The notes under the pieces: generated by a model
Seen by the model: the letters and a program-made list of their open reading frames with translations, nothing else
Database searches by the model: none
Told to the model about the DNA's origin: nothing
Position numbers and translations under genes: made by a program
Virus record (IMG/VR): IMGVR_UViG_3300045579_000023
Span: 1 to 26,993 of that record
DNA: 26,993 nt
Direction: 5' to 3' (one strand)
Source of the DNA: a virus
Shown: positions 8,687-26,993 of the stretch, one piece after another
How the letters are laid out: each line of letters opens with the position of its first letter
Numbering within the stretch: position 1 is the first letter of the stretch

Positions 8687-9616
8687 ATGGCAATTCCTAC
8701 AGGTACGCTTACTTCGTCTTCGACAATCAGCAATCTAGTCCAAACAGCATACGATCAGTATGTACGTATGGCACTTCGCTCCATCCCAGTGATGCGTGCG
8801 TTGGCTGATGTCAAGCCAGTACAGCAAGCAATGCCAGGTTCGTCAGTTGTATTCTCCATCTACTCAGATCTCGCAACAGCGACTGGTACTTTGACAGAAA
8901 CTTCTGATGTTTCCTCAATCGCTCTTGGTAACCCATCACAGGTTACTGTTACCCTCAATGAATACGGCTCAGCCGTAACAACCACCAAGAAGTTGAACCT
9001 CACTTCTTTCAACGACGTTGATTCAGCACTCGCTGACATCATTGCTTACAACGCTGCCGATTCAATCGACACAGTTGTATCGTCTGTTCTTACTGGTGGA
9101 TCAAACGCCCTCTACGGCGGAACTGCATCAGGTACAGCATCTGTTACAGCATCTGGAACAATGACAACTGCTCTTATCCGTAAGGCTGTTGTTCAACTCC
9201 GCACCAACAAAGCAGTACCTCGCATTGGCGAACTCTATGCTGCTTACCTCCACCCACGTCAGTCTGCGGATCTCCGCGCTGAAGCGGGAACTGGTGGATT
9301 CCAGGAACTCACCAAGTACGTCGAGCGCACACCGTTCGTCGCTGGTGCAGTCGGAGCACTCGAAGGTGCTTACATCGTTGAGACACCACGTGTCCCATCT
9401 GAAACCAATGCTTCTTCTGTCGTTGTTTACAAGGCAGTTGTCGCTGGTCGTGAAGCACTTGCTGAGGCTCTTGCACAAGATACTTCAGTTGTCATCGGTC
9501 CAGAAATCGACGCTCTACGTCGTTTCCGTACCATCGGCTGGTACCTCTTCGGTGGCTGGAACCGCCTCCGCGAAGCGGCTCTATACCGCATCGAGACTGC
9601 AACAACTATCAACTAG
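8687..9616 (+). CDS. Major capsid protein, N4 gp56-like
   Basis: This encodes 309 residues, with AAAGG shortly before the ATG. The pattern from residue about 50 (PGSSVVFSIYSDLATATG, then a Thr-rich strand, NEYGSAVTTTKKL, LTSFNDVDSALADIIAYNAA, DTVVSSVLTGGSN) matches what I know of the N4 gp56-type coat family, which has the HK97 fold. Later segments (RKAVVQLRTNKAVPR, YAAYLHPRQSADLR, and a C-terminal RRFRTIGWYLFGGW) also suit a coat protein. Position right after the scaffold supports the call. Codon choice looks more C-ended than in neighbours, as expected for the most abundant phage protein. Major capsid is nearly certain; the exact family is less so. Confidence 0.87.
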   Translation: MAIPTGTLTSSSTISNLVQTAYDQYVRMALRSIPVMRALADVKPVQQAMPGSSVVFSIYSDLATATGTLTETSDVSSIALGNPSQVTVTLNEYGSAVTTTKKLNLTSFNDVDSALADIIAYNAADSIDTVVSSVLTGGSNALYGGTASGTASVTASGTMTTALIRKAVVQLRTNKAVPRIGELYAAYLHPRQSADLRAEAGTGGFQELTKYVERTPFVAGAVGALEGAYIVETPRVPSETNASSVVVYKAVVAGREALAEALAQDTSVVIGPEIDALRRFRTIGWYLFGGWNRLREAALYRIETATTIN

Positions 9617-23635: not shown

Positions 23636-23672
23636 AGGCCCTTCAGGAGAAATCCTGAGGGGCTTCTTTTTT
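23636..23672 (+). terminator. Rho-independent terminator closing the late operon
   Basis: Arms at 23636-23648 and 23653-23665 pair over 13 positions (two G-T wobbles) around a GAAA loop. A C and six Ts follow (23666-23672). It lies 21 bases after the holin stop. On the minus strand the same stem is followed by a weaker T-rich stretch, so it may also stop transcripts from the convergent zinc-ribbon gene. Confidence 0.9.
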
Positions 23673-23677
23673 GTTGC

Positions 23678-23914
23678 CTAAAAACTTTCCTCTTTGTCCA
23701 CAGGACAGGGAACTTTGACTAGGTTGCCACAGTTTGCACATTGACCATCCAATGCCCACCAAGAAATTTCATAATCTTCAAACTGTGCAAAGATGTTGAA
23801 TACGGTAGAGCCGCAAGAACAGGCGTGGGTTGGACCTAGAGTGCGTAGATCAGCAGCAGTGATAGGAGGTAGAGGTGTGCTATATTTTAGCAGCCGAAGT
23901 AGACGGAACCACAT
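23678..23914 (-). CDS. Small zinc-ribbon protein, only minus-strand gene
   Basis: The likely start is the ATG at 23912-23914 (complement), giving 78 residues. A longer frame reaching 24124 would cover the hairpin-rich spacer and the start of the next gene, so it is rejected. The upstream AGGAGG (complement of 23930-23935) is 15 bases away, which is long, so the start is uncertain. The C-terminal part holds C-S-C-G and C-A-N-C-G (CxC...CxxC) around a beta core (VFNIFAQFEDYEISWWALDG), a zinc-ribbon. I know similar small proteins with THxCxCGS...FDDYEISWW from actinobacterial phages. The role is unknown; regulation or nucleic-acid contact are possible. Confidence 0.72.
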   Translation of the reverse strand: MWFRLLRLLKYSTPLPPITAADLRTLGPTHACSCGSTVFNIFAQFEDYEISWWALDGQCANCGNLVKVPCPVDKEESF

Positions 23915-23965
23915 TGCTCTGCACGGCTCCCTCCTAAGGTCGGTTCGCCTCTCGGCCTTCGGCCT

Positions 23966-23983
23966 CGGCACCGTGAGGTGCCG
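23966..23983. promoter_or_regulatory. Hairpin in the divergent spacer
   Basis: CGGCACC (23966-23972) pairs with GGTGCCG (23977-23983) around GTGA. On the plus strand TTTATT follows, a weak terminator-like tail. On the minus strand it would sit in the leader of the zinc-ribbon gene. Confidence 0.55.
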
Positions 23984-24022
23984 TTTATTCGCCTTCGGCT
24001 CATATTGTAATAATCCATCAGA

Positions 24023-24040
24023 GTGTCGCTGGCGCGACAC
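24023..24040. promoter_or_regulatory. Hairpin or operator-like dyad before the proteasome-like gene
   Basis: GTGTCGC (24023-24029) and GCGACAC (24034-24040) form a perfect seven-base inverted repeat around TGGC. It ends 26 bases before the GTG start at 24067, so it could be an operator overlapping the promoter. Confidence 0.5.
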
Positions 24041-24054
24041 GCCGTAGTATCCAT

Positions 24055-24060
24055 TACCAT
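24055..24060 (+). promoter_or_regulatory. Possible -10 box giving a leaderless transcript
   Basis: TACCAT fits the loose actinobacterial -10 pattern TANNNT and ends six bases before the GTG start at 24067. The gene lacks a ribosome binding site, so transcription starting at or near the G of the start codon would give a leaderless mRNA. No clear -35 is visible, so this is tentative. Confidence 0.3.
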
Positions 24061-24066
24061 TATCCA

Positions 24067-24630
24067 GTGACCACATTAGTAGCAGTCGAGTTAGACGATA
24101 GAGCAGTTCTAGCAGCAGACTCACAGATTACCGAAGATAACCTGCGAACTATTAGCAGTTCCACACCCAAGATAATTCACGTGGGTAAGTATCTATTAGG
24201 TCTTGTCGGTGATGCTAGGCCAGGAGATATCCTCGCCTATAACTGGACTCCGCCCGTGTATAAAGGCGCAGACCCGATTCAGTGGATGGGCAAGAAGGTA
24301 ATGCCGTCAATACTTACGGCGTTCAAAGAGAATGGATACGACCCGTATGAAGCGACGAAAGATAAAGACACAGGATTCGACTACATTGTCGCGTTTGATG
24401 GGAATGTATTCCATATCGCGACGGACTTATCGTTTATCAAATCTGACCACAAGATTTATGGAATCGGTAGTGGCGGCGCTTATGCTCTCGGTTATCTTTA
24501 TGATCGTTTGGGTCGTCTCACTGCTGGTAATGTAGAACCCATCGCCCGACGCGCCGTTGAAATCGCCAGCATACTTGATATAAACACTTGCCCTCCAATA
24601 CAATTAGTTACTCAACGACGGGAGTACTAA
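24067..24630 (+). CDS. Proteasome-beta / HslV-like Ntn hydrolase
   Basis: The 187 residues start at GTG (Met), followed directly by T-T-L-V-A-V. If the Met is removed, Thr becomes residue 1, the nucleophile of proteasome-family Ntn hydrolases. Numbering from that Thr, D17 (LAADSQIT) and K34 (STPKI, the Lys33 position with one extra residue) complete the catalytic set. A downstream GLVGDAR stretch matches the conserved Gly-rich segment near position 47. The C-terminal region (ARRAVEIASILD, CPPIQLV) fits the family helix and last strand. No propeptide is present, so it resembles HslV or an unprocessed proteasome beta subunit. No ATPase partner (HslU, Mpa) or alpha subunit is visible nearby. It could degrade host or phage proteins, or be a self-assembling peptidase. 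It is first in the rightward early-type block and its stop overlaps the next start. Confidence 0.82.
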   Translation: MTTLVAVELDDRAVLAADSQITEDNLRTISSSTPKIIHVGKYLLGLVGDARPGDILAYNWTPPVYKGADPIQWMGKKVMPSILTAFKENGYDPYEATKDKDTGFDYIVAFDGNVFHIATDLSFIKSDHKIYGIGSGGAYALGYLYDRLGRLTAGNVEPIARRAVEIASILDINTCPPIQLVTQRREY

Positions 24631-24818
24631 TGAGAAAAGACTGGTCCCACTGGACTATCTATTTCAATGCCAACCATTTGTATAACTGGGGCATTGGTAT
24701 CAACTATTACCACGAATACAATTACACACCATTTGAGATGCTTGCTAGAATTTGTCAGATAGACCTGTTATTCTTCAACATCACAATTACTCGATGGGAA
24801 AGTCGCCAGTGGATATAA
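24630..24818 (+). CDS. 62-residue hypothetical protein
   Basis: The ATG at 24630 overlaps the previous stop (TAATG) and is preceded by GGGAG at 24620-24624; a longer frame from 24588 lies inside the proteasome-like gene and is not preferred. The peptide is rich in aromatic residues (many Trp, Tyr, Phe) with WSHWTIYFNANHLYNWGI and a C-terminal IDLLFFNITITRWES. It may be a small beta protein. I do not recognise a family with a known role. The next gene starts within it. Confidence 0.6.
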   Translation: MRKDWSHWTIYFNANHLYNWGIGINYYHEYNYTPFEMLARICQIDLLFFNITITRWESRQWI

Positions 24819-25750
24819 AAGAATTACTTATCAAGGCGCTACACGATAAAGAGAACAAGCGCCCACGTTCTACTCAGGTTCAGGTAGGACCATCTGAACT
24901 AGGTGGTTGCCGTCGTAAAGTCTGGTACAAGTTACATAACCAGCCTGAGACTAACGAGAACGAGATGAAGTTAGCAGCGATTATGGGTACTGCTATTCAC
25001 GGTGCCATTGAAAAAGCAATGGCTGATAACAAAGAAGTTTTGATTGAGCAGACCGTAGAACATAACGGTATGAAAGCACACGTAGATCTCTACATCCCTG
25101 GGACAGGAGATGTAGTTGATTGGAAGACAGTCAAGGTGAAGAACCTTGCCTATTTTCCAAGCCAGCAGCAACGCTGGCAAGTACATACTTACGGATACCT
25201 CATAGAACAAAGTGGATTGGGGAAGGTCCACAATGTGCATCTTGTGGCTATTCCACGAGACGGTGACGAGCGCGATGTAAAGGTCCACTCAGAGAAGTAC
25301 GATTCTTCCATTGCGCTTGAAGCCCTATCTTGGTTGGAAGGTGTGAAGCAATCAGAGTTTCCACCAGAGCCTGAAAAGGATGAGAGTTACTGTAAGTTCT
25401 ACTGTAAATACTATGACGCATCAGGCGAGATGGGATGCGTTGGTCTAAAAAAAGAACGTACAAAAACTGAATTACCGCTTATTGAGAATTCAGATACTGC
25501 TACCAAAGCCTTGCAGTATCTACAACTAGATAACCAAATAAAGGATCTCACTACACAGAAAGATGCTTTGAAAGAAGAACTTGCTGGAGTAGTGGGTGTC
25601 ACCGATACAGGAGTAGAAGTTCGTTGGTCTTCTGTCGCTGGTGCTAAACAAGTGAATAAGGAAGTGGTCAAAGAACTTCTTGGCTTCGTTCCTACTATTG
25701 AAGGGAAAGAATCCCTTCGACTTTCTATCAAACATACTGGAGGTAAATAA
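24794..25750 (+). CDS. Cas4/RecB-like PD-(D/E)XK nuclease with Fe-S cysteines
   Basis: The ATG at 24794 gives 318 residues; a TTG at 24752 would add 14 residues deeper inside the preceding gene, and neither has a clear ribosome binding site. The nuclease core is visible: GTAIHGAIE (H69), HVDLYIPGTGDVVDWKT with D98, D109 and K111, and a QVHTYGYL segment that fits motif III. Cysteines C39 (GGCRRKVWY), C200, C204 and C215 (C-x3-C-x10-C) match the [4Fe-4S] ligands of Cas4 and AddB-type nucleases. Such enzymes resect DNA ends for recombination. The C-terminal 100 residues form a long charged helix region. There is no CRISPR array or other cas gene here, so a role in phage replication or recombination is more likely than spacer acquisition. 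Confidence 0.82.
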   Translation: MGKSPVDIKELLIKALHDKENKRPRSTQVQVGPSELGGCRRKVWYKLHNQPETNENEMKLAAIMGTAIHGAIEKAMADNKEVLIEQTVEHNGMKAHVDLYIPGTGDVVDWKTVKVKNLAYFPSQQQRWQVHTYGYLIEQSGLGKVHNVHLVAIPRDGDERDVKVHSEKYDSSIALEALSWLEGVKQSEFPPEPEKDESYCKFYCKYYDASGEMGCVGLKKERTKTELPLIENSDTATKALQYLQLDNQIKDLTTQKDALKEELAGVVGVTDTGVEVRWSSVAGAKQVNKEVVKELLGFVPTIEGKESLRLSIKHTGGK

Positions 25751-25753
25751 CAA

Positions 25754-26116
25754 GTGGCTGCGAATGAATCAACAAAGTTCCAAGTGAACTTCAAATCACC
25801 TGACGGAACTCTTATCAACCTTTACGCTTCAACAAAGGAGGAACTAGAATCGTTGCTAACTGCAGCGCAAGACTTTTCCGCCCTCATTGGAAGCGTTAGC
25901 CAATCTTTCTCAGGCGCTCGATCTGCTGCGCCCGTATCAAGTCCTGCTGCACCAGCAGCACCACGACCAGTCGTAGTTGAGGGTCAGACACCTGAATGTA
26001 AGCACGGTCAGATGCAATTTAGAACAGGTAACGGAGCCAAGGGACCTTGGAAGGCTTGGATGTGCGCTGCTCCTAAGGGTGCGCCAGACAAGTGCGACGC
26101 AATCTGGGTTCGATAA
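25754..26116 (+). CDS. Small protein with C-terminal Cys/His cluster
   Basis: This encodes 120 residues from a GTG start; GGAGG at 25739-25743 precedes it by ten bases. Residues 1-50 look like a small beta/alpha domain (KFQVNFKSPDGTLINLYAST, KEELESLLTAAQDF). Residues 53-77 are an Ala/Pro/Ser-rich flexible linker. The C-terminal 40 residues hold C82-x-H84 ... C104 ... C114, a likely zinc-binding fold with a basic, Trp-containing surface (GPWKAWMC). It lies between a Cas4-like nuclease and WhiB. A DNA-binding accessory role is inference. Confidence 0.7.
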   Translation: MAANESTKFQVNFKSPDGTLINLYASTKEELESLLTAAQDFSALIGSVSQSFSGARSAAPVSSPAAPAAPRPVVVEGQTPECKHGQMQFRTGNGAKGPWKAWMCAAPKGAPDKCDAIWVR

Positions 26117-26120
26117 CCAC

Positions 26121-26399
26121 GTGCGCGACCCACGAGAGTACGAGAGTCCTCTCTGTGCGGAAGTCGGTGGCGAGTACTGGTTCCCAGAAGATCTATCTGG
26201 TTTCGGAAAAAACGAAAACGTCAATCTCGCTAAGAGTATCTGTGGAAACTGTCGTCACCGAACTGAATGCGCCGAATGGGGAATTACTAGAGAACGCTAT
26301 GGTGTGTGGGGAGGACTTACTGCCAATCAGCGTAAATACATAAGGAGAAAACGAGGAATCATTCTTCCTCCAGAGGAAAGGGAAGGTAGAAGTGCTTAG
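26121..26399 (+). CDS. WhiB-family iron-sulfur transcription regulator
   Basis: The GTG at 26121 lies five bases after the upstream stop and gives 93 residues; a longer frame from 25977 overlaps the upstream gene heavily and is rejected. Four cysteines, C12, C41, C44 and C50 (C...C-x2-C-x5-C), are the [4Fe-4S] ligands of WhiB/Wbl proteins, followed by the diagnostic GVWGG turn (61-65) and a basic tail (KYIRRKRG) that contacts DNA in this family. Host Wbl proteins bind the housekeeping sigma factor and control development, stress and virulence genes. The phage copy may redirect host or phage promoters. It strongly supports an actinobacterial host. Confidence 0.92.
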   Translation: MRDPREYESPLCAEVGGEYWFPEDLSGFGKNENVNLAKSICGNCRHRTECAEWGITRERYGVWGGLTANQRKYIRRKRGIILPPEEREGRSA

Positions 26400-26993
26400 A
26401 CTTACACGTGCTTGGCAAGGCACGCAGATCAAAGCAACTCCACTTCCTGATGTCTGGAAAGATTTAGTAACAGGCGAGATAAGTGTACGCTTCAGACGAG
26501 GACAAGTCTGTATGGTTGCAGCAGCACCCAATGCAGGTAAGTCTATGTTCGCTCTAGTGTATGCAATCAAAGCAAAGATTCCAACGCTCTTCTTCTCAGC
26601 AGATACTGATACAACAACGGTAACTATCAGGGCTGCTGCTCATATGTCAGGTCATACACAACTGACAGTAGAAAAAAACCTTACTGAAAATCCTAACTTC
26701 TATAAAAAAGATTTAGGAGATATGCAACATATACAGTGGGTCTTTGACTCCAGTCCGTCACTCGATGATATCGAGATGGAGATAAAGGCTTACATAGAAC
26801 TGTATGGAATTGCACCTGAACTTATAGTGATAGATAATCTAATGAATGTAGCAGCCGAAACCGACAATGAGTGGGCAGGGCTGCGAGCAATTATGATGGA
26901 GTTACACGATATGGCACGCAAGACCGAAGCCTGTGTGCTAGTGCTTCATCACGTATCAGAACAGAGTGAGTATGGATCTCCCACGATGCCCCC
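26392..26993 (+). CDS. DnaB/RecA-like ATPase, 3' end outside window
   Basis: The GTG at 26392 overlaps the WhiB stop by eight bases; GGAAGG at 26381-26386 lies five bases upstream. About 200 residues are visible and the frame is open to the right edge. Walker A is A45-PNAGKS51 (MVAAAPNAGKS), Walker B is L145-IVID-N (hydrophobic strand ending in D148), and LVLHHVSE fits the later RecA-fold motif that senses nucleotide. This matches the RecA core of DnaB-type replicative helicases or related phage ATPases. Only about 40 residues precede the core, so there is no DnaB N-terminal or primase domain. It probably unwinds DNA in phage replication. Confidence 0.85.
   Translation, partial: MLRLTRAWQGTQIKATPLPDVWKDLVTGEISVRFRRGQVCMVAAAPNAGKSMFALVYAIKAKIPTLFFSADTDTTTVTIRAAAHMSGHTQLTVEKNLTENPNFYKKDLGDMQHIQWVFDSSPSLDDIEMEIKAYIELYGIAPELIVIDNLMNVAAETDNEWAGLRAIMMELHDMARKTEACVLVLHHVSEQSEYGSPTMP

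Follow-up and report, generated by a model that had tools for sequence, protein, structure and literature searches.

A predicted propeptide-free, BPH/HslV-like threonine peptidase as an optional accessory gene in phages with probable actinobacterial hosts

The stretch of DNA analysed here (the window), a 26,993-bp virus record that is part of a ~40-kb genome, carries on its plus strand a gene (24067-24630) for a threonine peptidase of the proteasome/HslV superfamily. We conclude, with a probability of roughly 0.6, that this gene encodes an active, propeptide-free peptidase of the BPH/HslV-like type (PHROG 1040), which has an accessory intracellular role and does not act in virion maturation. 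The role is most likely one in host takeover, counter-defence or proteostasis during replication.

The gene starts with GTG and encodes 187 aa with the N-terminus M-T-T, confirming the sequence-only reading, according to which Thr directly follows the initiator Met; residues are numbered with this Thr as 1. A family search with the Pfam Proteasome profile (PF00227) placed the protein inside the superfamily, as had been claimed (27.3 bits, cut-off 22.4), and PHROG 1040, 'peptidase HslV family', matched residues 1-186 with E = 5.3e-25. In the profile search, the BPHs were the nearest solved structures by sequence (match at 5e-10). An AlphaFold2 monomer model, for which a 30-row alignment of proteins from the window and the fetched loci served as input, had a mean pLDDT of 89.4 and a pTM of 0.85. 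When this model was compared to solved structures with Foldseek, BPH was at the top (TM 0.74), followed by HslV (TM ~0.72), with the 20S beta subunit also found, all at a probability of 1.00. By its profiles and its predicted fold, the protein is a propeptide-free Ntn threonine peptidase, placed within the proteasome superfamily on the BPH/HslV-like branch.

The residues D17 and K34, proposed earlier to complete the Ntn-hydrolase set, are present, together with the oxyanion-hole Gly47. We compared 30 diverse family members, including bacterial plasmid homologues and two BPHs, and found that Asp17 (codon 24118-24120) and the catalytic Lys (24169-24171; K34 here versus K33 in the proteasome, a one-residue offset) are invariant (30/30). 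The nucleophile (Thr1, 24070-24072) is Thr in 29 of the 30 and Ser in one, Tenacibaculum phage pT24, and does not vary in the phage alignments of 18 and 30 rows. At the position of Gly47 (24208-24210), the window's clade is invariant and the wider family also has Ser or Thr. The predicted Ntn fold is hence one with Thr1, Asp17, Lys and Gly47 in place, the active-site geometry being taken from the alignment, and, judged from these catalytic residues, the peptidase looks active. All 79 top relatives with the 5′ end in view begin directly with (M/V)TT and, therefore, a propeptide is absent in the window's clade, which bears out the claim that no propeptide removal is needed. Relatives of the peptidase are encoded in at least 595 IMG/VR stretches, and pairwise dN/dS between relatives in the window's clade is 0.07-0.19; this is a real conserved gene, far beyond chance, and is under purifying selection. 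Its identity to proteins outside its own clade is at most about 33%.

Read together with relatives of near-complete length, the record has the order terminase, portal, a ~1,500-aa protein, scaffold, MCP, tail fibres, endolysin and holin-like gene, and continues with the peptidase, a 62-aa ORF (24630-24818), a Cas4-like PD-(D/E)XK exonuclease (24752-25750, start uncertain), a gp49-like gene, a WhiB-like regulator (25977-26399) and a DnaB-like replicative helicase that is cut by the window end (26392-26991), all of the coordinates being on the plus strand. The names endolysin and holin-like were given by position or sequence appearance, the sole match of the endolysin being an uncharacterised PHROG. 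A terminator-like hairpin (23636-23665, plus strand) closes the upstream lysis module, with the exonuclease as the next gene of the replication block, so that the peptidase is indeed, as first described, the first gene of the regulation/DNA block. The WhiB-like regulator suggests an actinobacterial host, and together with the gp49-like gene and the closest isolates, which are Streptomyces phages, the sequence points to such a host. Several features of the locus vary among the relatives. The MCP of the window (8687-9616) is a short form of 309 aa, while the corresponding frames of G010-G016 and G019 have ~402-407 aa and contain an additional segment ahead of the final ~60 residues. In a few relatives, an extra ORF separates the coupled small gene from the peptidase; it is Cys-rich in L032 (719-1037) and possibly of the HNH type in L038 and L075.

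The region upstream of the peptidase gene contains an inverted repeat, GTGTCG-CTGGCG-CGACAC (24023-24040), a candidate operator of the peptidase promoter, which is found upstream of the gene in 18 of 18 dereplicated relatives. In the window, the exact repeat with its 6-bp arms has a single copy, and two 41-kb relatives have one copy each. Six nt before the start codon lies TACCAT (24055-24060, plus strand), a -10 element of the TANNNT type and part of a candidate leaderless promoter. A TANNNT element 5-9 nt before the start was present in all of the 18 dereplicated relatives (shuffled mean 1.5, maximum 6), and an SD-like motif at normal spacing was seen in one of the 18. These elements fit a leaderless promoter with its own operator. 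The peptidase gene would thus be an isolated transcription unit, with its candidate promoter behind the terminator-like hairpin, at the head of the replication block. Upstream of the operator, the intergenic stretch 23936-23990 holds GC-rich, UUCG-type hairpin-forming sequence (ggccttcggcc, cgccttcggct); Rfam gave zero matches in the window, including this sequence. A divergent ORF on the minus strand (23678-24124), which is kept in relatives (53% in G003) and has no family match, carries paired cysteines in its C-terminal part (zinc-ribbon-like), and may share the intergenic region and the inverted repeat with the peptidase.

Since it had been noted that no alpha subunit, HslU or proteasomal ATPase is encoded nearby, we searched for a partner in the window and ten relatives. 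These 11 records include five of the window's clade (27-41 kb), of which four are ~40 kb, and the control genomes were positive in 14 of 14 cases. No HslU/ClpX-type ATPase (PF07724, AAA_2) was detected in any of the 11 records. A single match to PF00004, in G007, proved to be a cousin's DnaB-like helicase. No alpha-like second subunit was found, each record having a single proteasome-type gene, and thus the earlier observation holds across the 11 records. The peptidase may be half of a two-component protease that is fed by an AAA+ unfoldase of the host, such as Mpa/ARC or a Clp-type ATPase. For folded substrates, HslV and the 20S proteasome depend on ATPases, the phage is without one and hosts always possess some; against this, the survey of new proteasome homologues reported no co-occurring AAA+ partner (PMC8665760), and we regard such feeding as possible but rather unlikely.

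The gene of the 62-aa protein overlaps the stop codon of the peptidase with its start (a stop/start overlap, translationally coupled) and is conserved in the clade, and this small protein could be the partner of the peptidase. It is present with the peptidase at all 81 loci, adjacent at 77 and nearby at four, and a search starting from the small protein found the peptidase upstream in all of the 71 testable loci. However, in loci anchored on the endolysin-like gene, the peptidase, the small ORF and the exonuclease are present together in 27 and absent together in 35, such that the exonuclease co-segregates equally and the genes form a syntenic block of one phage lineage. Moreover, similar small proteins were seen by eye in cousins without an adjacent peptidase, and in the DSL-LC01 and ct2KA10 groups the peptidase has other neighbours. 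Because of this block inheritance and the similar proteins in cousins, the 62-aa protein is not established as a dedicated partner, and we consider such a partnership improbable.

The sequence-only reading had also raised the processing of phage proteins, and the gene could in principle encode the capsid maturation (prohead) protease. Cousins were recruited via the endolysin-like gene and were of three types. In type 1 (the window, G003 and G017), the peptidase is of the window's clade and, for the window and G003, stands first in the replication block. In type 2 (ct2KA10, G010, G011, G015 and G016), a different exonuclease lies at the junction and the peptidase is found directly downstream of the portal gene. 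In type 3 (G012, G013 and G014; 39-41 kb), the same profile search found no peptidase, an absence that is not absolute as these near-complete genomes are metagenomic contigs. The portal and the MCP are ~50% and ~48% identical, respectively, to those of type 1 in types 2 and 3 alike. The peptidase is likewise missing from the Streptomyces phage Dennebes (Beephvirinae), whose terminase, portal, scaffold and MCP are homologous (MCP 45% identical). In the Microbacterium phage WaterT, the proteasome-like 'protease' gp15 occurs alongside another enzyme, a 'capsid maturation protease', whose gene lies between those of portal and MCP. In the ct2KA10 group, the peptidase gene immediately follows the portal gene, at the usual place of a prohead protease, which would fit a head-linked role there, but in the lineage of the window the peptidase lies far from the head genes. 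Since cousins with homologous head genes lack the peptidase and WaterT has a separate enzyme, the peptidase is most likely not the head protease. As an obligatory part of the head module it was rejected, and its identity as a prohead protease is very improbable. Hence, the peptidase is an optional accessory in this group of cousins, whose portal and capsid genes are homologous.

The replication module is swapped among these cousins, with different exonucleases (24752-25750 in the window versus L325, L341 and L388). In type 3 (L352, L368 and L377), the block is in the opposite orientation, beside the conserved endolysin-like and holin-like genes.

For the preferred reading, an accessory intracellular peptidase, we propose the following mechanism. 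Since Thr is the next residue, the host methionine aminopeptidase would remove the initiator Met and expose Thr1. By analogy with the nearest solved relatives, the subunits would self-assemble into a homo-oligomeric ring, which may be fed by a host unfoldase or may, with no phage ATPase dedicated to it, break down peptides or unfolded proteins; here we infer both the ATP independence and the nature of the substrates. The peptidase's own promoter would drive its synthesis at about the time when replication begins, with the early timing judged from the position of the gene only. An attack on host defence or regulatory proteins, as suggested earlier, is possible; PADLOC gave no defence match for the peptidase. 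More specifically, this could be an actinophage-specific branch, under its own operator-controlled leaderless promoter and swapped in and out at different loci, whose ATPase-independent protease clears away a single specific host protein, or a few of them, with a function in defence or regulation. This more specific proposal is tentative and rather improbable; if true, it would mean a phage-encoded 'mini-proteasome' used as a weapon.

We compared the peptidase with the known families of the superfamily. It is not HslV proper (33.7 bits against 137 and 32.7 bits against 157.75, the NCBIfam equivalog cut-offs), and HslU had no match in the 11 records. Neither is it a 20S proteasome beta subunit, for it reached 20.9 bits with the archaeal beta model, whose cut-off is 224, lacks a propeptide and is the one proteasome-type gene of each record. 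Actinobacterial hosts may encode a proteasome, and the sequence-only reading had considered that the phage protein could mix with its subunits, for instance joining or poisoning the 20S proteasome as a decoy beta subunit. Such mixing is unlikely because the match to the beta model is far below the cut-off, and a decoy, moreover, would be without the propeptide that guides the assembly of bacterial beta subunits (PMC8665760); we find the decoy hardly credible. Another alternative is a specialised Ntn hydrolase, an amidohydrolase or a protein ligase, and not a general peptidase. The Ntn fold is versatile, and connectase is a proteasome homologue that has become a ligase (PMC8665760). However, the AlphaFold2 model has no two-helix insertion between strands S3 (20-23) and S4 (26-29), the signature of connectase, and the predicted fold is compact and BPH-like; connectase was thus rejected and a specialised activity of this kind has little probability.

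Phage-carried proteasome homologues, PPH (~140 aa, without helix H2) and AAH, were described by Fuchs, Alva and Lupas in 2021 (PMC8665760). PPH was rejected as a match for the peptidase of 187 aa, and since H1 (50-59) and H2 (70-88) are both present in its model, AAH is more likely than PPH, as compared by published description. In a tree, the peptidase fell with DSL-LC01, ct2KA10, Microbacterium phage and Klebsiella phage KP13-26 proteins in an 'MTT' group whose support is weak (89/70) and in which KP13-26 and WaterT are long branches; the peptidase thus groups weakly with other actinophage proteins. A separate 'MTC' group (100/98) holds Rhizobium, Streptomyces and Bacillus plasmid proteins together with those of large phages, the Rhizobium and Streptomyces plasmid homologues being AAH by taxonomy only. 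The two BPHs form a branch of their own (100/100) outside the phage family, and the peptidase is not a BPH member. Distant homologues are present in plasmid records, and two scans of genome contigs for cellular relatives gave none that was confirmed.

Proteasome-like genes elsewhere show further arrangements. In unrelated phages and a phage-like plasmid (L188, L190, L191, L192, L182, L185 and L086), they seem often to adjoin nucleotide-metabolism or PhoH genes. The neighbours are thymidylate synthase, DHFR and RNR in Pantoea AAS21, TS and DHFR in Geobacillus E3, ThyX and MazG in Pumpernickel, ThyX on a B. licheniformis plasmid, MazG in Ochrobactrum OC and PhoH in J2-1 and KP13-26. The Aeromonas phage 2L372X (L189:1453-2415) has a tandem pair of such genes, 210 and 211, each of which carries the annotation 'peptidase HslV family' and has Thr after the initiator residue, which makes an active/active or an alpha/beta-like pair possible.

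That the peptidase stands solo in a phage, as first described, holds true, but it is less unusual than was thought. With homologues described in 2021 (PMC8665760), it is one more of that kind. Phage collections hold dozens of proteasome homologues, BFVD contains many phage proteins of the same fold, and public records already include actinophages with such genes, mostly annotated just as protease ('ATP-dependent protease subunit' in Actinomycetia phage DSL-LC01, 'protease' in the Microbacterium phages Pumpernickel and WaterT). The 2021 survey found no AAA+ partner and no telling context for the new proteasome homologues, and did not find AAH in actinobacterial phages (PMC8665760), to which the family is now extended. 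We found no phage proteasome homologue with a known function in the literature. What is new is that close cousins carry the peptidase elsewhere or not at all, together with the conserved inverted repeat and the candidate leaderless-type promoter, and the actinophage branch. Among phages whose head and lysis genes are homologous, the peptidase has one locus in some, a different locus in others and is missing from the rest; this natural comparison makes the function testable, and the series of presence, absence and position argues strongly against capsid maturation as its general role.

Compared to known systems, the peptidase shares with HslV (ClpQ) the fold, the TTxxxV start, the catalytic residues and the oxyanion Gly. 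With BPH (PDB 5OVS/5OVU), it has in common the compact subunit and the long segment linking helix 2 to strand 7, and no unfoldase partner is known for BPH either; BPH differs in that the identity is 23-24% and its gene is bacterial and not from a phage. The Group I-like compact form, the carriage by tailed phages and the lack of an AAA+ partner are shared with AAH and PPH. Finally, the PHROG 1040 phage proteins of DSL-LC01, Pumpernickel and WaterT belong to the same family by profile or alignment, with the same Thr1, Asp17 and Lys, likewise no propeptide and no ATPase neighbour seen, and the clade of the window differs from them by having its own locus and promoter arrangement.
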